A stretch of DNA of 64,000 nt from Salinisphaera hydrothermalis C41B8. Lineage in GTDB: Bacteria; Pseudomonadota; Gammaproteobacteria; Nevskiales; Salinisphaeraceae. Shown piece by piece: positions 6,790 to 57,295 of the stretch (position 1 is the stretch's first letter; each line of letters begins with the position of its first letter). Below the pieces are notes generated by a model, which did not search any database, was not told where the DNA came from, and saw only the letters and a list, made by a program, of their open reading frames with translations. The position numbers and the translations under genes were made by a program. Location: assembly GCF_000732535.1 (NCBI RefSeq), contig NZ_APNK01000003.1:124001-188000 (forward strand), read 5' to 3'.

Positions 6790-6834
6790 CAGGACACGCG
6801 CCCGCCCCTTGCAGGCGGCGCGATGTCGTCGTTA

Positions 6835-7944
6835 TCAGCGGCCAAGCGCACGGCCGAGCGGCCGCAGCTCGGCGATATGGTCGCAGGTGACCTTGCAAAC
6901 CAGCAGCAGCGGCACGGCCATCAACATGCCGGCCACGCCCCACAGCCATCCCCAGAAGAACAACGCGACGAAGACCATGAGCGGGCTCATGGCAAAACGA
7001 TGGCCGTGAATCATCGGGGTGATGAAATTACCTTCCAGCACGTTGAGCGCAAACACGGCCAGCGGCGCCGCCGCGACGTGCGCGAGCGTATCGAAGGTGG
7101 CAAACGAAGCGAGCGTAATCAGTCCCAGGGAAACCGCGGCACCGACGTAGGGCGCGAAATTGAAGATCCCCACGATCACGCCCCAGAGCACTGGATCGGC
7201 TAAGCCGATCAGCCATAGCACCAGCGCCGTCACGGCGCCCAGCGTCATGTTGATCAACGTCACTGTGGCCAGATAGCGGCCAATATCGGCCTGCAAGTTC
7301 CGGACGATGCACACCGCGTTGGCGCGGCTGCGCGCCGACGGCATGAGCAATAACAGCTGTTTGAACAGAGTACCGCGACCGGCGAGCATGAAATACAGCA
7401 GGATCAGCGTCATCACCAGAATGCTGCCGGTCCACTGCAGGTTCGTGATGATGCGCGCTCGCAGCCCCTTGTGATTGATCTCGATGGTCTGCTTGCTGGC
7501 CTTGCCGATGAGCTTGGTCGCGGCCTTCTTGATCTCCTTGGTGCTCTCGTTCATGTTCTGGATCTGCTTCTGCAGCTCGCTCGTCTTGTGATTGAACGAG
7601 GAGAACGCCTCGGGCGCGCGGTTGATCCAGTATTCGGCGGGCCCCGTGAGCATGTAGATGCCATAGCCGGCGATGGCAGCACAGCTGGCAATGATGAAGG
7701 CAGCGGACAGCCCACGCGGCAAATGCCAGCGCTCGGCGCGCGTCACCAGCGGTCCGAGCAGCATATTGAACAACAACGCCAGCGCGATCGGAATACAGAC
7801 GAACCGAGTGAAATACAACGTATAGCCGAGCGCCAGCACCAGCAGCGCGGTCAATACGAGCGAACGTATGCTGAGCGGGCGGGAAAACAGCTGAACCGCG
7901 CCCTCGTCCGACATATCCTCTGGCGACGCGCTCGACTCCGACAT
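6835..7944 (-). CDS. AI-2E family transporter (YdiK/PerM-like)
   Basis: A 369-residue integral membrane protein of the AI-2E transporter family (PF01594), with two N-terminal helices, a hydrophilic and partly coiled segment around residues 105-165 rich in Lys and Glu, then a cluster of helices including AVTALVLWLIGLADPVLWG and FNFAPYVGAAVSL. The family includes putative autoinducer-2 exporters and Na+/H+ antiporters, so the substrate cannot be assigned. The start is supported by AAGGGG seven bases upstream of the ATG. It converges on the ClC gene with a 45 bp gap containing an imperfect GC hairpin. Confidence 0.88.
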   Translation of the reverse strand: MSESSASPEDMSDEGAVQLFSRPLSIRSLVLTALLVLALGYTLYFTRFVCIPIALALLFNMLLGPLVTRAERWHLPRGLSAAFIIASCAAIAGYGIYMLTGPAEYWINRAPEAFSSFNHKTSELQKQIQNMNESTKEIKKAATKLIGKASKQTIEINHKGLRARIITNLQWTGSILVMTLILLYFMLAGRGTLFKQLLLLMPSARSRANAVCIVRNLQADIGRYLATVTLINMTLGAVTALVLWLIGLADPVLWGVIVGIFNFAPYVGAAVSLGLITLASFATFDTLAHVAAAPLAVFALNVLEGNFITPMIHGHRFAMSPLMVFVALFFWGWLWGVAGMLMAVPLLLVCKVTCDHIAELRPLGRALGR

Positions 7945-8092
7945 TCACAATCCCCTTTCTTATTCTCCGACGCCGCCCCCGGCCGATCCGGCTCAAGATA
8001 CGCCCGGCCCGTAGGTCGCGCCATGCGTGTATTGCCGGAGGTGCGAGTCGCGGGCTAGATTGCCCGCAGGCCCCTACCGACCGCCCCGCCTC

Positions 8093-9076
8093 ATGAGCTC
8101 GACCGTTCTCGTTTTCTCCGATAGCTTGCCGGACGATCAGAAAGCCCGGCTCGCCGAGCGCTACACGCTCGCCGATTTCTCTGCCTACGACGCCCCCAGC
8201 ACCGCGCCCGGCTTCGACGACGCGCTCGCCCGGGCGCGGGGCGCGATCGGCGTTTCCATGCGCTGGCCGGCCGAAACCATCGAGCGGGCACCCCACCTGC
8301 GGGTGCTGTCCAGCGTCTCGGTTGGGGTCGACGCCTATGACGTCGCCGCCTTGTCGCAGCGCGGGATCGCGCTCGGCCATACGCCCGACGTGCTGACCGA
8401 TACCACAGCCGACACGGCAATGACCCTGCTGCTTGCAACCGCCCGCCGCGTGGTCGAGCTCGCGGAATGGGTCCGCGCCGGCCAGTGGACGGCACCGGTC
8501 GGCCGCGACCAGTTCGGCGTGAACGTGCATCACAAGCGCCTGGGCATCGTCGGCATGGGCCGTATCGGCCAGGCCATCGCCCGGCGAGCGGCCTTCGGTT
8601 TTGGCATGGAAGTCGTCTACCACAACCGCTCGCGCAAGCCCGAGGCGGAAGACGAAATCGGCCTGCGCTACGTCGAATTCGACGAGCTGCTGGCCGATGC
8701 GGATTTCGTCTGCGTGGTCGTGCCCGGCACCGACGACACCCACCACATGTTCGACGAAGCCGCGTTCGAGCGGATGGCGCCGCATGCGATCTTCATCAAC
8801 ATCGCCCGAGGTTCGGTGGTGGACGAAAACGCCCTCGTGGCCGCCCTCGACGCCGGTGGCATCCGCGCAGCCGGCCTCGATGTATTCCAGGGCGAACCGA
8901 TCGGCGCTGACCACCCGCTGGTCGGCCGCAACGACGTCGTCGCCCTGCCGCATATCGGCTCGGCCACCTTCGAAACCCGCTACGACATGGCACGCCTGGC
9001 CGTGGACAACCTCATAGCCGGCCTCGAGGGCGAGCCGATGCCGGCCTGTTACAACGCCGCTGATCTTGAACTCTGA
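8093..9076 (+). CDS. D-2-hydroxyacid dehydrogenase (2-ketogluconate/glyoxylate reductase type)
   Basis: A 327-residue NAD(P)-dependent D-isomer-specific 2-hydroxyacid dehydrogenase that would reduce 2-oxo acids such as glyoxylate, hydroxypyruvate or 2-ketogluconate. The substrate-domain motif SVSVGVDAYD, the Rossmann motif GMGRIGQAIARR, the NIARGSVVDENALV motif and the catalytic histidine in LPHIGSATFETR are all present, with the conserved glutamate in GLDVFQGEP. The overall pattern is closest to GhrB/TkrA. The start is the ATG at 8093 (MSSTVLVFS); the frame extends to 8027 but the added codons look non-coding. It stands alone and is followed by a terminator-like hairpin. Confidence 0.88.
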   Translation: MSSTVLVFSDSLPDDQKARLAERYTLADFSAYDAPSTAPGFDDALARARGAIGVSMRWPAETIERAPHLRVLSSVSVGVDAYDVAALSQRGIALGHTPDVLTDTTADTAMTLLLATARRVVELAEWVRAGQWTAPVGRDQFGVNVHHKRLGIVGMGRIGQAIARRAAFGFGMEVVYHNRSRKPEAEDEIGLRYVEFDELLADADFVCVVVPGTDDTHHMFDEAAFERMAPHAIFINIARGSVVDENALVAALDAGGIRAAGLDVFQGEPIGADHPLVGRNDVVALPHIGSATFETRYDMARLAVDNLIAGLEGEPMPACYNAADLEL

Positions 9077-9748
9077 TTCAAAAGCAGCGGCCGACCCGAG
9101 CGCCGGCTGGCGCCCGCCCTGGGCCGGCGCGACCGAGAGCCTCGGGACGCGGCTCTCGATTCTTCAGCTGGCACGGCAACAGCTAGACGCCTCGGACCTT
9201 ACCGTGCCTTGAGCAGCGGTAGCCCGGAGCGCCACGGGCTTGAGCCGTCAAATGGATCGCTCGCCCCGAAGTCCGGCGTCCAGACGTTCATGGTGGGCGC
9301 CGTTGATTACGCCTGCCAGATAAAACCGGCACGACGAAACCCCCTGCGCGTACCATTGGGCCCCCAGACACCTACCCAGGAAGCCGGCACACCGAGCACA
9401 GCACGCGACGCCCAATGAAAGATCGCCTTCCAACGCAACATCCGCTTTATCGCGCCGGAGTCTTATTCCAACGCTGCATCACGATGCAGCCGGGCACGCC
9501 AACGCGAAATCGGCAAAAAGGATCCGGTCGGAAGTTCGACCGCCGCCGCGATCTATTTATTGATCATGGCCACACGGGCATCGGCGATACACCCCGAAGC
9601 CGATTCGGCATGCACAACAAGCTGAACAGCCTCTCGCGACGATTTAAACAGCACGTTTCCATGCGCGTAAGCGCGACATGCGTGCTCGGCACGACCCAAC
9701 GACAACGATGGCTGCCAAATAACCCAACACCTTCTCAAGGAGCGCTTC
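9077..9748. other. Non-coding region ahead of the phc-like operon
   Basis: I find no convincing gene in these 672 bp. Open frames at 9209-9418 and 9415-9765 lack ribosome binding sites and recognisable protein patterns. Besides the terminator-like hairpin, it holds a perfect 7-bp stem with a 4-base loop at 9473-9490 (GCTGCAT/ATGCAGC) and a GGTCG/CGACC inverted repeat at 9526-9541. Either could be a regulator site for the downstream operon. AAGGAG at 9737-9742 is the ribosome binding site of the next gene. Confidence 0.5.
9134..9158 (+). terminator. Terminator-like hairpin after the D-2-hydroxyacid dehydrogenase
   Basis: A perfect 8-bp stem (CGAGAGCC/GGCTCTCG) with a 9-base loop lies 58 bp after the dehydrogenase stop and is followed by GATTCTT. 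The T-run is weak, so termination is plausible but not certain. Confidence 0.5.
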
Positions 9749-11155
9749 GTGGCTACCATCCATAGTCTCAACGACCTGATCGTTTTCACGAACAGCCAGG
9801 GCACGGCGGCCCGTGGCAATTTGGTCAAAGTGTCGCGCACCACGCTAATTTTCGAAGTATATAACCCGTACTCCATAGTCCAGCTGAGCGAGGTGCTGCA
9901 CAGCCTGGAGATTCGAGGCAACGACCGGGTCATCTACCGTGGCCGCGCGGTCGTCAGCGGCCTGGTCAACACGGGCCTGATGCTCATCGTTTCGGCCAGC
10001 CTTCTCGACCCCTGGTCCGAACTCATCGGCCTGGCCGGTGACCGCGAAAACATCCGGCACGAGATCCATCAATTCATTGACGAATGGCAAAGCAATCAGC
10101 AGATCAGGCCGGATTATCAACTCAGCGTTTCGCGGCTACGCTCGTTCCTGACCGCCTTGAATCGCTGGCTCGAACATCTGGACTTCGAGGATGACAGAGG
10201 CGATACCGCCGCCTCCCGAGACCAGCTATTTCCAGATCTCGCCGAGCCTCTCGTTCCGCCCCTGATCGAACTGTTCAGCGACTTCGAAAAGCAAGCCTCT
10301 CAGATCCCGGAGGAAGAGCGCATAACCCACATGCGCTACGCACAAGATGATCTGCATCCGCTTCTGATGCGGGCCCCTTTCGTACATCGTGCCTACTACA
10401 AGCCCCTCGGATACGCGGGCGACTACGAAATGGTCAACATGATGCTGCGCGACCCGCGCGAAGGGCCCACGATCTATGCCCAGCTCATCAACACACTGTA
10501 TCTACAAACCGGACCGGCGGAGGCACATCGGAACCGCATCAACATCCTGGTCGACCAATTGCGTGACCAGATTACGCGTCTACGCAAAGAAGCCCCGGAC
10601 AAGACACCGCGGATATTGAACGTCGGATGCGGCCCGGCCATCGAGCTACAGCGTCTGATCCGCCAGAGTCGAGCCATCGAGATCTGCGACATCACGCTCA
10701 TAGATTTCAGTCGCGAGACGCTGGATTACACCGAAAAGCAACTCAACGAGGCCAGTGACGCCAGCGGCATTCGACCGCAGATCACGTTCTCCCACCAGTC
10801 CGTTCACGGCTTGCTGCGCCATGCCTCCAGGCCCGAAGGCTCGGAGCAGGACGAGTACGACATCATCTATTGTGCCGGCCTGTTCGACTATCTTTCCGAT
10901 CGCGTCTGCGCCAGACTTCTCAATCTATTCCACCAGTGGTGCAAGGAGGGCGGCCAGGTCATGGTCACCAATGTGCATCCCGACAATCCGGCACGCCACT
11001 GGATGGAGCATTTGCTCGAATGGTATCTGATTTATCGAGACGATACCGACATGGAGAAATTGGGCGCCCCTTTTCCGAACCATCAAGCCTTCAAGGACGA
11101 AACCGGAATCAACATCTTTTTGCATATCACGAAAGATTCGAATGCTGGACAATGA
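9749..11155 (+). CDS. phcB: PhcB-like SAM-dependent methyltransferase (fatty-acid methyl ester autoinducer synthase candidate)
   Basis: A 468-residue protein. The N-terminal ~90 residues look like a small PilZ-like beta-barrel. A helical middle follows with YYKPLGYAGDYEMVNMML near residue 215, and a class I methyltransferase domain with motif ILNVGCGPAIELQRL (Gly293-Gly295). This layout and the gene order match PhcB, which in Ralstonia methylates a 3-hydroxy fatty acid to make the quorum signal (3-OH PAME or 3-OH MAME). The GTG start at 9749 has AAGGAG six bases upstream. The 3' end overlaps the next gene by 14 bp, indicating translational coupling. The actual product in this organism is inferred, not shown. 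Confidence 0.72.
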   Translation: MATIHSLNDLIVFTNSQGTAARGNLVKVSRTTLIFEVYNPYSIVQLSEVLHSLEIRGNDRVIYRGRAVVSGLVNTGLMLIVSASLLDPWSELIGLAGDRENIRHEIHQFIDEWQSNQQIRPDYQLSVSRLRSFLTALNRWLEHLDFEDDRGDTAASRDQLFPDLAEPLVPPLIELFSDFEKQASQIPEEERITHMRYAQDDLHPLLMRAPFVHRAYYKPLGYAGDYEMVNMMLRDPREGPTIYAQLINTLYLQTGPAEAHRNRINILVDQLRDQITRLRKEAPDKTPRILNVGCGPAIELQRLIRQSRAIEICDITLIDFSRETLDYTEKQLNEASDASGIRPQITFSHQSVHGLLRHASRPEGSEQDEYDIIYCAGLFDYLSDRVCARLLNLFHQWCKEGGQVMVTNVHPDNPARHWMEHLLEWYLIYRDDTDMEKLGAPFPNHQAFKDETGINIFLHITKDSNAGQ

Positions 11156-13781
11156 TGGAAAAGACGAGGCGCTAAAGGCCTGGGAAGCCTACGACCGGTC
11201 CGAGCGCATCAGGTTTTCGAAGATCGGATGCATTCTGGCGCTGATATTGATGCCGGCCGGGGTAAGTCTGGATATTTTTGTATATCCAGGCCATGCAGCC
11301 ACGTTCTTCTGCTTCCGCCTGGTGGCCGACGCCTTTCTGCTGGTGATTCTGGCGCTGCACTTTCAGCAACGAGGCAAATTTCCGGCCGGCGCACTCATCT
11401 TTGCATGGCTATCTGTGGCCCAGATCGCGATTTGCATGATGATTTACCTGACCGACGGCTTCGCCTCGACCTACTACGCAGGGCTCAATCTCGCAATTCT
11501 CGGCATGGGCATCCTCTTGCCCGTGAGTTTGATTGAAGTCCTGATCTTCTCCGGCATGACGCTCGCGCTGTACCTGGCGGCGGGTTTCGCCCATTCGCCG
11601 GGGCCTATTAATTTCGGACTGCTCTATAACAACGTCTATTTCATGCTGACGACGTCCGTCATTAGTGCCACGGCCGTTTATTTCAGCCGCAGAAGACGGC
11701 TCCGGGAATTCAGCCTCAATTTCGAACTCAGCAATCGAAACCAGGAGCTTTCCGAGCTCGATCGTATTAAGTCCGAGTTCTTTGCCAACATAAGCCACGA
11801 ATTCCGCACGCCTCTCACGTTGATCCTCGCGCCACTGGACGGTTTGCTGGAGGAACGCGAGAGCCTCCCGGAACCGGCCGTTCGCAGACTCGATTTGATC
11901 CGACAGAACAGCCTTCGTCTGCTTCGCCTGGTTAACGATCTATTGGACGTGATCCGGCTCGAAGAAGGCCGCGCCGATCTCGATCGACGAAACCTGCGCT
12001 TCGACACTCTTCTCGCCGACGTCATTCAATCCATGGTCCCGCTGGCGGAAGCCCGCGGTATTACGCTGACCCCAGATCTGGATGCCTCGCCCATCGTGGT
12101 TATGGGCGACCGCAGCGCGCTGGAAAAGGTGTTCTTAAATCTACTGAGCAACGCCATAAAATTCACACCGAAAGGCGGGAATATCAGAGCCAGCAGCATC
12201 CCGACGGCCGATTCGGTGGCGATAACGATAGAAGATACCGGGATAGGCATGCGCCGCGAAAGCTTGCCATACGTCTTCGACCGCTTCCGGCAGGCCGATA
12301 GCTCTTCGACTCGAAAATACGGCGGCACGGGGCTCGGGTTGGCGCTGGTCAAAGAAATCACCGAAGCTCACGGCGGCCAAGTCACTATCGATTCCGAACA
12401 AGGCCAGGGGACGACGGTCCGGGTCACGCTGCCGACGCTTGCAATCGATACACTGAATCCCGAAACCCCGGTTGAGATCGAGACGGACAACGACATTGCG
12501 CCGCAAAGACAATTGGATCTTGCGGCGCAGCTCGCGGCTGTGGCGACCACGCACGAACCGGAGACCGACTTGTCCGAGGAGGACAGCACGGCATTCGAGC
12601 ACACCGTCCTCGTGGTGGACGATGAACCGGATATGCGTCGGTATCTCGCCGATCTGCTGAGCAAGGAATATCGAGTGATCGTTGCCATCGACGGCAAGCA
12701 GGCTCTGGAAGTCGCCCGTCGAGAGCGCCCCGCACTCATCGTACTGGACCTCATGCTTCCCGAAATCGACGGTCTGGAAGTCTGTCGACGCATTAAGCAG
12801 GACATCGATTTACGCGCCTCACGAATCGTGTTGCTCACGGCCCGGGCGAACGAGCCGTCGAAGCTGATTGCCCTGGACAACGGTGCCGATGATTTCCTCA
12901 CCAAGCCGTTCAGCGGAATCGAAGTGCGAACCCGCCTCCGCAACCTGCTGCGTAACGCCAAACTCGAACGCGACCTGCATCGTCGCAACAAGGATCTCGA
13001 GGACGCACTGAACCGATTGAGCGACGCCCAGGACCAACTGGTTCATAGCGAGAAATTGAATGCGCTCGGCCGTCTTTCGGCCGGTTTGCTGCACGAAATC
13101 AACAACCCGCTGAACTACACACTGACGGCGCTGGAATTCGCCAAGACTGACCCTGCCGTCGAAGCCGACAGCGATTTACGGGAAATACTGGGCGATATCG
13201 ATGAGGGGATGCAGAGGATACGCGGGATCGTCAAAGAGCTGCGCGCCTTTGCCTATCCCTCGAAAAGCGAGAAAACTGCGTTTTCTTTATCCGGTGCCGT
13301 TTTGGCCGCTATTCAGATGTCGATACACGAAGCTCAGGGAATCCGCGTGAACAATCGAGTCGGCGACGACTGGGTGGTCATCGGCTCTCGCAATCACATC
13401 ACGCAAGTCACGATCAATTTACTGTCGAACGCATTCAAGGCTATACGCTCGACGGATATGCACGGTACCGGCGAAGTGACGATATCCGCGACCGAGAAAG
13501 GCGATCGCGTATCGGTTTCCGTACTCGACAATGGCTCGGGCATCGCGCCCGAAGACATCGATCGCGTATTCGATCCTTTTTACACCACAGCTGATGTCGG
13601 CGAGGGTATGGGAATGGGGTTGAGCGTTTGTCAGACGATCATTCGAAATCACGACGGCGAACTCACGGTCGACAGCGAGAATGGAAAATGGACTCGCTTT
13701 AGTTTTGACTTGCAGCTCGGCGCGCTGGAGTTGGAAACCGAGGAATCAAGCCTTCAAAGTGCCGCGCATTATTCGCAATGA
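11142..13781 (+). CDS. phcS: PhcS-like membrane hybrid sensor kinase (HK-REC-HK)
   Basis: An 879-residue inner-membrane sensor. About six hydrophobic segments span residues 25-185 and include STYYAGLNLAILGMG, a pattern I associate with the PhcS/LqsS sensor family. A first kinase core follows (His219 in ISHEFRTPL, ATP-binding DTGIGM and GTGLGLAL). Next comes a receiver (Asp536 in IVLDLMLPE, FLTKPF) and a second kinase core (His651 in LLHEINNPL, DNGSGI, GMGMGLSVC). The Ralstonia protein has a single kinase core, so this one carries an extra receiver and kinase. It overlaps the methyltransferase by 14 bp and the next gene by ATGA. Confidence 0.75.
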   Translation: MLDNDGKDEALKAWEAYDRSERIRFSKIGCILALILMPAGVSLDIFVYPGHAATFFCFRLVADAFLLVILALHFQQRGKFPAGALIFAWLSVAQIAICMMIYLTDGFASTYYAGLNLAILGMGILLPVSLIEVLIFSGMTLALYLAAGFAHSPGPINFGLLYNNVYFMLTTSVISATAVYFSRRRRLREFSLNFELSNRNQELSELDRIKSEFFANISHEFRTPLTLILAPLDGLLEERESLPEPAVRRLDLIRQNSLRLLRLVNDLLDVIRLEEGRADLDRRNLRFDTLLADVIQSMVPLAEARGITLTPDLDASPIVVMGDRSALEKVFLNLLSNAIKFTPKGGNIRASSIPTADSVAITIEDTGIGMRRESLPYVFDRFRQADSSSTRKYGGTGLGLALVKEITEAHGGQVTIDSEQGQGTTVRVTLPTLAIDTLNPETPVEIETDNDIAPQRQLDLAAQLAAVATTHEPETDLSEEDSTAFEHTVLVVDDEPDMRRYLADLLSKEYRVIVAIDGKQALEVARRERPALIVLDLMLPEIDGLEVCRRIKQDIDLRASRIVLLTARANEPSKLIALDNGADDFLTKPFSGIEVRTRLRNLLRNAKLERDLHRRNKDLEDALNRLSDAQDQLVHSEKLNALGRLSAGLLHEINNPLNYTLTALEFAKTDPAVEADSDLREILGDIDEGMQRIRGIVKELRAFAYPSKSEKTAFSLSGAVLAAIQMSIHEAQGIRVNNRVGDDWVVIGSRNHITQVTINLLSNAFKAIRSTDMHGTGEVTISATEKGDRVSVSVLDNGSGIAPEDIDRVFDPFYTTADVGEGMGMGLSVCQTIIRNHDGELTVDSENGKWTRFSFDLQLGALELETEESSLQSAAHYSQ

Positions 13782-14941
13782 CCACGTCAGCTAACGGAGA
13801 AATCGTCCTGTTCGTCGATGACGAGCCGATGATCCGGAAATATTTCGAGCGCGCGTTCAGCCGGGACATGCGCATCATGACGGCCGACGGAAGCCAGGCC
13901 GCATACACTGTTCTCGAGACGTACGGCGAGGATGTTGCGATTCTGATGACCGATCAGCGCATGCCAGCGGGCGATGGCGTATCGCTACTGCATGCGGTGA
14001 AGACGGAATATCCCCATATCGTTCGCCTATTGACGACCGCGTATTCAGAGCTGGAACACGCTGTCGCGGCCGTCAACCAGGGCGAGATATGGCGATACAT
14101 AACAAAACCCTGGGACCTCGAATCCCTTCGAGAAACCCTGTCCGATGCGCTGGAAGTCTACCGTTACCGAAAATACGAACAGGCGCTGCTCGCCGAGCGC
14201 CGCCAAGCCACGCTCACCGTGGCCAGCTACATGGCGCACGAAATGCGCACCCCGTTGCGCTCCATCCACGCCGGCGCACGCGGCCTCGAAAAACACCTGT
14301 CGACCCTGTTCGACGGCTACGACTGGGCGATCCGTCATGGCGCGGATATCGAGCCGCTCACCCAGCGGCACCGAGCGATCCTCGGCGAGTCGACCGCCAA
14401 TATGCAACGGGTCGCAAACCGAGCCAACGCCGTTATAGAGCTGTTGCTGGCCAACGCCGGGGCATTCCGCATCAGCCCGGATTCCTTTGAGCTATGCGCC
14501 ATAACCGATTGCGTCGAGGCCGCGCTGGAAGATTTCCCATTCAATGACCTGGAACGATCTATTGTGCAATGGGATAAAGGCGACCATTTCTCTTTCAACG
14601 GATCGATGCATTTGATGATCCTGGTTCTTCACAATTTATTGCGGAATGCCCTTCGCGCGGTTATTGCCAAGGGAAACGGCACGATCAGGATTTGGGCGGA
14701 TGCCCGAGACGACATAAACTTCTTGCACGTCAAGGATACGGGAACAGGTATCCCGGCACGTTTGCTACCGCGAATATTTGACGATTTCGCGAGTTTCTCG
14801 GGCGACCAGCACGGCGCTGGGATCGGGCTGAGCTTCTGCCATAAAGTAATGGCCAGCTTTGGCGGGGACATTCGCTGCTCTAGCGTAGAGTGCGAATACA
14901 CACAATTCGATCTCCAGTTTCCGTCAAGACAGAATGAATAG
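13778..14941 (+). CDS. phcR: PhcR-like response regulator with C-terminal histidine kinase domain
   Basis: A 387-residue protein with an N-terminal receiver (VDDEPM, Asp59 in LMTDQRMPAGDG, and the switch lysine in ITKPW) and a C-terminal kinase core (His154 in YMAHEMRTPLRS, ATP-binding motifs DTGTGI and GAGIGLSFCHK). A receiver fused to a kinase core in third position matches PhcR of the Ralstonia operon, which is phosphorylated by PhcS and controls the activity of the master regulator PhcA. The ATG overlaps the preceding stop by four bases. No DNA-binding domain is present, so output must go through phosphotransfer or protein contact. Confidence 0.72.
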   Translation: MTTSANGEIVLFVDDEPMIRKYFERAFSRDMRIMTADGSQAAYTVLETYGEDVAILMTDQRMPAGDGVSLLHAVKTEYPHIVRLLTTAYSELEHAVAAVNQGEIWRYITKPWDLESLRETLSDALEVYRYRKYEQALLAERRQATLTVASYMAHEMRTPLRSIHAGARGLEKHLSTLFDGYDWAIRHGADIEPLTQRHRAILGESTANMQRVANRANAVIELLLANAGAFRISPDSFELCAITDCVEAALEDFPFNDLERSIVQWDKGDHFSFNGSMHLMILVLHNLLRNALRAVIAKGNGTIRIWADARDDINFLHVKDTGTGIPARLLPRIFDDFASFSGDQHGAGIGLSFCHKVMASFGGDIRCSSVECEYTQFDLQFPSRQNE

Positions 14942-14968
14942 CGCCGACACCACGGAGCAGGGATTCAC

Positions 14969-16117
14969 ATGAGCCAAAGCAGCCCCCACGATCCCAGCCG
15001 CGGATGTGCCATTCTTTACGTCGATGATGAAGAAATGGCGCTGAAGTATTTCCAGCGCGCTCTGGATAAAGAATTTTCAATTTACGTCGCCACCGATGCC
15101 AATGCGGGATTGGACATCCTGGAAGCGCACGGCGACGCCATCGGCGTTGTGGTAAGCGATCAGCGCATGCCAGGGCTCTCCGGCGTCGAGCTGCTGAAAA
15201 AAGTGCGCCGCAACTGGCCGCATATCGTGCGCATCCTAACCACCGCTTACGCCGACCTCGATGACGCTATCGAGGCCGTCAACGCAGGCGAAATATTCCG
15301 CTACATCACCAAGCCGTGGGAAACCAAGGCGCTTCGAGCCGAAATGAAGCAAGCAGCGAGCATGTTTCGCTTGCAACAGGAACGCACTGAACTCATCCGC
15401 GAAAAAATGAGCGTTTGGCAGCGCCTGATCCAACTCGGGCGTTTGCGCGATTTGATCGTGATGGGCGGCAGCGTCAATACGCTGCGTTACGGCGACGCGG
15501 CGGTCGCCGCGTATCTCCAAGATCATGTCACCGCGAACCAGAACGATGATCTCGCCTCGTCTCGGCATCTCGACCTCTGGCAGCTTACCGAGACCGAGAT
15601 CAGCCGGACCCTGTCTTTCGTCAGCCAAGTGGTCACACGCATCGTGGACATCGCGAATCGCGACGAGCCTTTCGCAACCGTGATTGATGCGGAGCGCCTG
15701 CAGCAACTGGTGGCCGATGCTTTTCCGAACGTGACAATCGCCGACCGTGACCGGGTACCGCACATTCGAGGCGCCGAGCCCGTCCTGACGCGACTGCTCG
15801 AAGAACTCGCCACCGCCACCGGGCGCCCGACGGACCCAGTTTCAATTCACCCCGCCCATGACGACACCGCGGTATCGTTTTCTATTCCCTGCGCTGTGCT
15901 GCCGACGGATAGCGGGCTGACTTCAAGCGACGCAGCCGGACTGATGGCGTCCTACCTGTTGGCGTTCCATCACGGGGGGCGCTTGGAACTGGAGACCTCA
16001 CAAGATAGACGCCGTTATATGGTCACGCTTCCGGCCGACCCTGTGAGCGCGCATCCAAAACCGCTTTCCAGCGGGTGGTTGGCGCCGCTTCTGGTTCGTC
16101 TGGAAGGCTGGGATTGA
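14969..16117 (+). CDS. phcQ: PhcQ-like response regulator with a degenerate C-terminal module
   Basis: A 382-residue protein that starts 27 bp after the PhcR-like gene. Its receiver resembles the preceding one (YVDDEEMALKYF, Asp64 in VVSDQRMPGLSG, ITKPWE). The remaining ~250 residues have the length and position of a kinase core but lack a HExRTPL-type phosphoacceptor box and recognisable ATP-binding glycine motifs. It probably works as a phosphate sink or protein-contact switch. Position and domain start agree with PhcQ. It is the last gene of the operon; a dispersed repeat and the convergent leuA lie beyond. Confidence 0.65.
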   Translation: MSQSSPHDPSRGCAILYVDDEEMALKYFQRALDKEFSIYVATDANAGLDILEAHGDAIGVVVSDQRMPGLSGVELLKKVRRNWPHIVRILTTAYADLDDAIEAVNAGEIFRYITKPWETKALRAEMKQAASMFRLQQERTELIREKMSVWQRLIQLGRLRDLIVMGGSVNTLRYGDAAVAAYLQDHVTANQNDDLASSRHLDLWQLTETEISRTLSFVSQVVTRIVDIANRDEPFATVIDAERLQQLVADAFPNVTIADRDRVPHIRGAEPVLTRLLEELATATGRPTDPVSIHPAHDDTAVSFSIPCAVLPTDSGLTSSDAAGLMASYLLAFHHGGRLELETSQDRRRYMVTLPADPVSAHPKPLSSGWLAPLLVRLEGWD

Positions 16118-16231: not shown

Positions 16232-16505
16232 CTAGGGCGTGTTGAGGTTTCGTGCGAGTCCGCGCCAAGCGCAGTTTTGCGGCAAGACGAGGCGTAGCGA
16301 ACGTGGCGTAGTCGTTCTACGCGAGAGAGCGACAACGCTGTATTGCCGCAAAACAGCGCTTGTCCCGAAGGGTTGGGCCGCAAATCGCGCCCTGCGGCGT
16401 TGCGAATCTGGGTCGTGGCACACCACGACACGGCGACTCGCGCCTTGCCGGACACGATTTGCGGACGCCAACGCGGCGCTCTCCCGAAACCTCAACACGC
16501 CCTAG
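16232..16505. repeat. Dispersed inverted-terminal element, copy A (274 bp)
   Basis: The ends are a perfect 21-bp inverted repeat (CTAGGGCGTG plus TTGAGGTTTCG). Inside are a ~66-bp module bounded by GGCAA/TTGCC and a folded half with nested inverted repeats: CCGCAAATCG (16378-16387) with CGATTTGCGG (16455-16464), and GTCGTGG/CCACGAC at the apex (16412-16429). The same architecture recurs at 19812, 42869 and 57010. No transposase is encoded. The right end contains the leuA stop codon. Confidence 0.85.
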
Positions 16506-19811: not shown

Positions 19812-19988
19812 TATGGCGTGTGGAGGTTTCGTGCGCGCGCCGCGTTGAAGACCGCAAATCGCGCTCTGCAAGGCGCGAGTCGCCGCACCGTGGCTCGTCA
19901 CGATCAAGACTCGCAACGCCGCAGGGGAAGGATTTGCGCCCCAATCCGAAGGGACAAGCGGACTCGTACGAAACCTCAACAGGCCCCG
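19812..19988. repeat. Dispersed inverted-terminal element, copy B (about 177 bp, lacks the GGCAA module)
   Basis: The ends pair as GTGTGGAGGTTTCG and CGAAACCTCAACAGG. It runs in the opposite orientation to copy A and keeps the folded half (CAAGGCGCGAGTCGCC with GACTCGCAACGCC), with a different apical stem (CGTG/CACG). It lacks the ~100 bp containing the GGCAAGACGAGGCG module, so it is a deletion form. It lies between the divergent lipoprotein and EmrB-like genes and so may influence their promoters. Confidence 0.75.
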
Positions 19989-42344: not shown

Positions 42345-42871
42345 TGGATCCGATCGAACTCGTTGCCGCCGATACCCCGTCCCTGCTGCTCGAGCTCTCA
42401 GCGCTTGCGCATGTCATCTGGCGCCAGCACTACACCCCGATCATCGGTCGCAAGCAGGTCGAGTACATGCTTCACGGCGGCTACAGCGAAAGCGCATTGA
42501 ACGAGCAGTTGGCTGCCGGCACGCGCTTCACGCTTGCCCGCCGGGGGCCGCGGTTCCTGGCTTTCGCGGCCGTATCACCCGATTCCGACGCCCCGAAGAC
42601 CGCGTGGCTCGACAAACTCTACGTGCATATCGAGGCACGCAATCTGGGCGTGGGCCGACGACTCGTCGAGCGCGCGTGCGAGCAAGCCCGGACATTCGGC
42701 GCCGATACGCTGCGGCTGCGCGTGAACCGTGACAACGCCGAGTCGATTACCGCCTACCAACGCATCGGTTTCGAAATAGAGCAGGAGGACGTGAAAGACA
42801 TCGGCCACGGCTTCGTCATGGACGACTACATCATGGCCATGCCAGTCGAGCGGCTGACCACGGTCGACTAG
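42344..42871 (+). CDS. GNAT-family N-acetyltransferase
   Basis: A 175-residue GNAT acetyltransferase. The acetyl-CoA-binding segment reads LDKLYVHIEARNLGVGRRLVE (Q/RxxGxG/A), followed by LRLRVNRDNAESITAYQRIGF, a standard motif B. The target amine is unknown. It is coupled to the DUF1992 gene. Its UAG stop codon (42869-42871) falls inside the terminal repeat of the dispersed element copy C, as leuA's does in copy A. Confidence 0.87.
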   Translation: MDPIELVAADTPSLLLELSALAHVIWRQHYTPIIGRKQVEYMLHGGYSESALNEQLAAGTRFTLARRGPRFLAFAAVSPDSDAPKTAWLDKLYVHIEARNLGVGRRLVERACEQARTFGADTLRLRVNRDNAESITAYQRIGFEIEQEDVKDIGHGFVMDDYIMAMPVERLTTVD

Positions 42872-43179
42872 GGTCTGTTGAGGTTTCGTGCGAGCGCCGC
42901 GTTGGCGTCCGCAAATCGTGTCCGGCAAGGCGCGAGTCGCCGGCTCTGGGCGTGCCACAACCCAGACTCGCAACGCCGCCGGGCGCCCCTAGTTAACTTT
43001 TTATGGGCGGCCCAACCCGAAGGGACAAGCGCCCACAAATTAACGACACGACGGCAATCCAGCGTTGTCGCTCTCTCGTAGAACAACTACGCCACGTTCG
43101 CTACGCCTCGTCTTGCCGCCCCTAGTTAATTTTCAGGGAGCGCTTGGCGCGGACTCGCACGAAACCTCAACAGACCCTA
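42869..43179. repeat. Dispersed inverted-terminal element, copy C (about 311 bp)
   Basis: The longest copy, in the opposite orientation to A and D. A 26-bp perfect terminal inverted repeat begins TAGGGTCTGTTGAGG and ends CCTCAACAGACCCTA, so both ends show TA. It holds the folded half with apical stem CTGGG/CCCAG (in the copy-A sense), the GGCAAGACGAGGCG module at 85% or better identity to A and D, and extra AT-rich pieces (GTTAAC, TTAATTTTC) also found in D. Located between convergent genes. Confidence 0.85.
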
Positions 43180-57009: not shown

Positions 57010-57295
57010 GGGCGTGTTGAGGTCTCGTGCGGGCCCGCGCCAAGCGCTCCCTGAAAATTAACCAGGGCGGCAAGACGAGGCGTAGCGAACGTGGCGTAGT
57101 CGTTCTACGCGAGAGCGCGACAACGCTGGATTGCCGTCGTGTCGTTAATTTAAGGCGCTTGTCCCGAAGGGTTGGGGCGCCCGGCGGCGTTGCGAGTCTG
57201 GGTCGTGGCACGCCCCGAGCCGGCGACTCGCGCCTTGCCGGACACGATTTGCGCACGTCAACGCAGTGCGCTCACGAAACCTCAACACGTCCTAG
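57010..57295. repeat. Dispersed inverted-terminal element, copy D (286 bp)
   Basis: The same orientation as copy A, with ends GGGCGTGTTGAGG and CCTCAACACGTCCTAG. The GGCAAGACGAGGCG module differs from copy A at about three positions in 66. The flanks of the module (CCCTGAAAATTAACC and GTTAATTTAAG) match copy C, not A. The left flank is TC rather than TA, so that end has drifted. Located between the chemoreceptor and TRAP genes. Confidence 0.85.

Follow-up and report, generated by a model that had tools for sequence, protein, structure and literature searches.

In Ralstonia, a four-gene phc set makes and senses a fatty-acid methyl-ester signal. The question raised by the locus investigated here is whether four adjacent genes in Salinisphaera hydrothermalis C41B8, found in a stretch of 64,000 nucleotides (the window), encode a system of the same kind. 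They likely do, although this bacterium and Ralstonia are related only distantly: the genes are best explained as an operon for cell-to-cell signalling of the Phc type, in a variant with a double kinase, for which a signal and a relay are proposed below. The analysis established the gene order, the homology, domain make-up and catalytic residues of the encoded proteins, the occurrence of the double-kinase form across several groups, and the site of insertion. As reference sequences for Phc proteins those of Cupriavidus were used, standing in for Ralstonia, and features of the Ralstonia proteins were taken from papers, which are cited by PMC number.

The four open reading frames (ORFs) are located on the plus strand and encode PhcB-like, PhcS-like, PhcR-like and PhcQ-like proteins, with overlaps of 14 and then 4 bases between the ORF coordinates, followed by a gap of 27 bases. 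The phcB-like gene (9749–11155, 468 aa, Pfam methyltransferase) has a GTG start, and AAGGAG at 9737–9742 on the same strand, 6 bases 5′ of the GTG, is its likely ribosome-binding site. The phcS-like gene in its double-kinase form follows (11142–13781, 879 aa; Pfam HisKA-HATPase-receiver-HisKA-HATPase), and then the phcR-like gene (13778–14941, 387 aa; Pfam receiver-HisKA-HATPase, with D59, H154 and intact kinase sites) and the phcQ-like gene (14969–16117, 382 aa), where Pfam recognizes only a receiver (D64) and the C-terminal domain appears to be degenerate and kinase-like. ORF coordinates and Pfam domains both agree with the placement given by the initial annotation, which had described four overlapping or nearly touching genes in the order B-S-R-Q. 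The same one-strand order phcB-phcS-phcR-phcQ is found in Cupriavidus and Hydrogenophaga loci, and is therefore not a matter of chance. A promoter scan returned no match on the plus strand (2 in all, vs 3.1 expected), a terminator scan found 13 (vs 7.7 expected, sd 2.9), and an Rfam scan gave none above gathering score.

The PhcB-like protein shows full-length homology to PhcB, with 44–48% identity to the Burkholderiales homologues seen, and its nearest relatives, approximately 71% identical, are encoded by a genome of the same genus (G004) and by the Ectothiorhodospiraceae locus L029. Based on Pfam and an AlphaFold model (pLDDT 84.6), the protein comprises an N-terminal beta domain (aa 10–85), a helical domain (aa 99–281) and a SAM methyltransferase domain (aa ~285–461). 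The closest solved fold was 3ocj (VIA Z 20.2, 262 residues aligned, rmsd 3.4); the fold searches with Foldseek and VIA were filled by methyltransferases, and the N-terminal domain was hardly probed by fold. A PilZ (c-di-GMP) assignment of the N-terminal domain was considered and rejected, as PilZ was absent among the 25 shown of the 32 Pfam families matched (39 members, E ≤1). Of 39 aligned sequences, 31 have arginine at position 22, the window protein being counted among them, and the other eight have T, N or H; an evolution experiment with Ralstonia is reported to have altered R22 of PhcB, and less signal was present in the supernatant (PMC6989110).

The second gene had been labelled a membrane sensor kinase. 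Its product does contain the membrane domain and a PhcS-type kinase, but is a double kinase with a receiver inside it rather than a plain kinase. The PhcS-type membrane sensor domain (~aa 12–182; 11175–11687) was delineated by hhalign against the membrane domain of short PhcS, with an E value of 2.9e-57 and 40% identity over 172 columns, while ten column-shuffled controls gave E values of 0.09–0.5. Pfam and conserved sites place an extra kinase, HK1, at aa 205–436 (11754–12449; H219 at 11796–11798) and the internal receiver at aa 489–599 (12606–12938; D536 at 12747–12749). The PhcS-type kinase, HK2, spans aa 632–866 (13035–13739; H651 at 13092–13094; all on the plus strand) and was recognized by sequence identity, sharing 50% with the kinase of short PhcS as compared to 25% for HK1, and by a tree of 73 kinase cores in which 25 of 52 short sensors were used. 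In this tree HK1 was separate at 100/100 and HK2 grouped with the short PhcS kinases at 100/100, with the latter falling among HK2 sequences at forks of moderate support (94/87 and similar). The membrane domain and HK2 are consequently found in one S protein, split by the inserted kinase and receiver. The Cupriavidus-type S architecture, with a single kinase and ~440 aa, is not matched by the window S, which at 879 aa carries two kinases as well as a receiver and thus makes the operon a variant rather than a canonical Phc system. The gene order described initially stands, whereas an exact copy of the Ralstonia operon is contradicted by the 879-aa double kinase in place of a ~440-aa S and by a longer Q.

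All 26 double-kinase proteins, including the one in the window, have the H, N, D and G sites of HK1 as well as the D and K of the internal receiver. H219, D536, H651 and the examined ATP-site residues are kept in every one of these 26 that is long enough to cover them, and the sole varying site among those examined is one G2-box position, which is M or L. H651 of HK2 is the counterpart of the short PhcS histidine (position 231 in Cupriavidus pinatubonensis), found as His in 52 of 52 short kinases; in Ralstonia, H230 of PhcS is reported to be required for PhcA activation (PMC11960443).

The third protein consists of a receiver and a histidine kinase, and has no DNA-binding domain by Pfam. D59, H154 and the ATP-binding residues are kept in the window protein and in all those R proteins, 56 out of 57, that were readable there. 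Among the 18 double-kinase named loci with sufficient DNA, 12 lack an R gene behind S, and R may therefore not be central. One of the loci counted as lacking it, L041, carries R ahead of S; in L039 and L040, an R- or Q-like gene is encoded on the opposite strand. L102 was scored R-positive on a weak match (25% to a 533-aa frame).

The Q protein has a receiver and a C-terminal part without a DNA-binding match, as expected of PhcQ. With 382 aa it is longer than the betaproteobacterial PhcQ sampled (~320–340 aa), and the similarity is mainly in the receiver. The top Foldseek match to the whole AlphaFold model (mean pLDDT 87) was the hybrid response regulator LvrB (PDB 8vc9; E 3e-13, 392 columns), with a TM-score of 0.3 and rmsd of 22, such that the domains are not superposable as a whole; window Q, unlike LvrB, lacks a match to either HisKA or HATPase. 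Among Q relatives, HisKA was matched in 5 of 26 and HATPase in 4 of 26 (Pfam E ≤1), and four of six planctomycete Q rows have SHHIRNS at the expected phospho-accepting histidine, the other two having SNHIRNS and SYRLRNS. PhcQ thus looks like a degenerate receiver-kinase that would have lost its kinase activity, a reading that leans on the Foldseek, Pfam and SHHIRNS data, the VIA fold list for Q being filled by receivers. In Ralstonia, PhcQ is reported to account for most quorum-sensing-dependent genes (PMC8578825) and to bind PhcA (PMC13320629).

What the operon signals with, which way phosphate moves and what the output is are proposed by analogy with Ralstonia and from the domains. The PhcB-like enzyme would methylate a 3-hydroxy fatty acid or a closely related compound, and the methyl ester would exit the cell and be sensed by the PhcS-type membrane domain, which would control HK1. 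HK1 would autophosphorylate at H219 and the phosphate would pass to D536 of the built-in receiver, whose phosphorylation would switch or feed HK2 (H651), and HK2 may in turn signal to R and Q via their receivers (D59 and D64, respectively). Finally, Q or R would contact a separate regulator, as PhcQ does with PhcA in Ralstonia. Another kinase, VsrA, has been reported to take part in Ralstonia ester sensing (PMC11960443), and PhcS alone may therefore not define the input. The inserted HK1-receiver could also have a role other than feeding HK2, acting as a phosphate sink or brake or integrating a second cue. Such a role, which overlaps with the Phc-type explanation, would be compatible with both kinases and the receiver retaining their examined sites and with the reported ability of the Ralstonia short form to work without an HK1-receiver (PMC11960443). 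We nevertheless consider it somewhat unlikely, since Pfam showed no further sensor domain separating the receiver from HK2, and HK1 directly follows the only membrane domain.

On the output side, the genome encodes 39 LysR-substrate domains over the cut-off and the window none, in line with the initial remark that phcA is not found in the window. LysR genes beside the Cupriavidus operons (L109, 10092–11042; L110, 10037–10987) were considered as a PhcA reference and dropped, as their sequence features look OxyR-like. Pfam detected no DNA-binding domain above cut-off in any of the four operon proteins, and output would therefore proceed via contact with a separate regulator. For Cupriavidus a complete Phc system has been described, and a phcA from this genus is reported to complement Ralstonia mutants (PMC2842291).

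The distribution of the operon was investigated using PhcB as the query. The locus is indeed outside its classical hosts, as initially noted, but such genes are common: a scan of a genome collection returned at least 540 PhcB relatives. The best-scoring 80 were studied as named loci, and shares among these 80 do not equate to shares in nature. An intact PhcB frame was present in 79 of the 80, and 58 of the 79 had at least 5.5 kb downstream. An S gene adjoins PhcB in all 58 (57 by script; in L083 it is part of a merged frame). A same-strand Q-like gene follows downstream in 57, the exception being L041, where positions 7435–14052 have the order Q-R-B-S instead of B-S-R-Q. Among the 79, no S was called in four: three stop at a contig edge and the fourth is L083. 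The double-kinase S was found in all 12 loci labelled Gammaproteobacteria among the best 80: ten were scored as such, and L034 and L036, which are contig-cut, were scored as short but carry the HK1-type H-box FFANISHELRTPL. It was also found, with some sensors contig-cut, in nine loci from Planctomycetota, two from Verrucomicrobiota, two from Hyphomicrobiaceae and one unclassified Pseudomonadota locus. Short PhcS (~440 aa) was found in betaproteobacterial loci, 47 in the tally as well as L083; among these 47, L064 and L077 stop short of the kinase, and their assignment to the short form is by placement.

Two further loci from metagenome-assembled genomes (MAGs) labelled Rickettsiaceae, one of which is titled Rickettsia typhi (L060 and L062), have PhcB, short PhcS and a Q-like gene (contig-cut in L060); a quorum operon would be odd in this family, and the taxon labels are uncertain. 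A conjugative plasmid of Paraburkholderia graminis (L111; NZ_CP024936.1, 432595–436970) encodes a PhcB homologue, a sensor and two response regulators, the first annotated at just 405 bases, and was the only PLSDB record matching a Cupriavidus PhcB at E 1e-20.

It could be argued that the genes are Phc-derived but no longer serve quorum sensing, the methyltransferase making an internal lipid or modifying another molecule and the kinases sensing membrane or lipid state. The methyltransferase fold does resemble many small-molecule methyltransferases, and the relatives outside Betaproteobacteria among the best 80 are mostly MAGs without a known phenotype. However, the synthase-like and sensor genes are linked across classes and phyla even where the order has changed (L041), as would befit a matched signal-sensor pair, and the membrane sensor domain is conserved, making this explanation unlikely. 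A chance association of generic two-component genes with an unrelated methyltransferase, suggested by how common kinases and receivers are and how many families they match, is highly improbable and, barring an artefact, already refuted by the full-length PhcB homology, the same adjoining sensor gene in 58 of 58 loci, and the specific match of both membrane domain and HK2 to short PhcS. Assignment to the Phc family, which the initial annotation had proposed to check against PhcB, PhcS, PhcR and PhcQ and by synteny, is confirmed by the full-length PhcB homology, the PhcS membrane domain and kinase, and the neighbouring S gene.

Within the Phc family, the relationship between the two sensor forms was addressed with a PhcB tree of 59 rows, made up of all 25 double-kinase loci, 32 others picked by hand, the window and an outgroup. 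With contig-cut rows counted, the tree implied two changes for the short form and three for the double-kinase form. Four rows (L034, L036, L064 and L077) were labelled from contig-cut sensors, and when three of these (L036, L064 and L077) were later dropped, there were two changes in all. AU tests against a single origin were borderline, with p values of 0.0425 for the short form and 0.041 for the double-kinase group. The root was set by one distant paralogue as outgroup, a place where, according to a program warning, long branches come together. This paralogue is a second PhcB, 32% identical, encoded immediately before PhcB in Candidatus Anammoximicrobium (L075, 8269–9753). The trees suggest, with borderline support, that short PhcS arose by loss of the HK1-receiver in the betaproteobacterial line. 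A broader scenario, to which we tentatively assign slightly less than even chances, is that double-kinase PhcS is ancestral and serves communication by lipid esters, or related compounds, in Gammaproteobacteria, Planctomycetota, Verrucomicrobiota and some Alphaproteobacteria, the Ralstonia system being a simplified offshoot without the HK1-receiver and PhcQ a former receiver-kinase whose kinase activity was lost.

In the phylum sample, 7 of 398 genomes encode full-length PhcB, including that of the window itself (the other six being 45–46% identical), and five more have partial matches (29–39%). Full-length PhcB was found in 2 of 14 genomes of the genus and 2 of 85 of the order, with one more order genome having a partial match (31%); absent from 12 of 14 genus and 83 of 85 order genomes, it is therefore dispensable. 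The GC content of the operon is 57.3%, as compared to 64.4% for the remainder of the window, and the GC3 values of its genes (0.68–0.71) are the four lowest among predicted ORFs of at least 200 codons (median 0.80), with a 196-codon ORF at 0.69 and some shorter window ORFs equal to or below the operon genes. The operon in G004 likewise has a lower GC content than its flanks (60.6% vs 64.8%). In G007, the closest relative by LeuA (92%), only 616 bases separate leuA from the gene for the 2-hydroxyacid dehydrogenase, and the segment 9078–16503 of the window has no counterpart at this empty site, homology ending at 9077 and resuming at 16504. When window ORFs outside the operon were compared to ORFs of 12 related loci, no match was found at E 1e-15, and Nitrococcus loci share neighbouring genes with one another. 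Judging from these sequence comparisons, the operon is probably a foreign insert acquired as a unit; a possible alternative reading of the empty site is loss of the operon in G007.

A MITE-like repeat of 274 bp with perfect 21-bp terminal inverted repeats is located between the operon and leuA (16232–16505), overlapping the leuA stop codon. The repeat is also found at 19814–19986, 42871–43177 and 57010–57292, as inverted end-match pairs 173–307 bp apart. Approximately 40 near full-length copies were scored among 162 candidates in the genome, all 14 genus members have matches, and an Rfam match to the repeat was not found. Further upstream, an AI-2E family transporter gene (6835–7944) lies inside a region (6796–8090) for which blastn gave no match to the 12-kb piece of G007 used for comparison.

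What is new here, as read from the sequences, appears to be the double-kinase PhcS variant, the Phc operon type being already known. According to a 2023 survey, the distribution of the phc cluster is restricted and betaproteobacterial, with Planctomycetota outside the scope of the survey; among the listings and passages of the literature searched, none describes a double-kinase PhcS or a phc operon outside Betaproteobacteria. If the function is the same, fatty-acid methyl-ester signalling would be a wider language in Gammaproteobacteria, Planctomycetota and Verrucomicrobiota, beyond plant pathogens. The double kinase could serve as a model for a sensor gaining or losing a phosphorelay step, and the degenerate-kinase reading would give a structure to PhcQ, once called uncharacterised (PMC6989110).

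Compared to known systems, the operon shares with the Phc systems of Ralstonia and Cupriavidus the order B-S-R-Q, a full-length PhcB, a PhcS membrane domain with kinase, the receiver-kinase PhcR and the receiver protein PhcQ; it differs in the extra kinase and receiver inside S and in a Q longer than those sampled from Betaproteobacteria. The operons of Nitrococcus mobilis Nb-231 (L038) and Ectothiorhodospiraceae bacterium WFHF3C12 (L029), for which we found no named function, have both the order B-S-R-Q and the same double-kinase S, with PhcB proteins 61% and 71% identical to that of the window, respectively, but their genomic neighbourhoods differ from the one described here. The Lqs system (LqsA-LqsS-LqsR, PhcX/LqsR), which is reported to coexist with Phc in many Betaproteobacteria, shares by description a membrane sensor kinase and a receiver protein; it differs in that LqsA is a PLP-dependent synthase and not a methyltransferase, and that the output domain of LqsR is diguanylate cyclase-like (PMC10653808).
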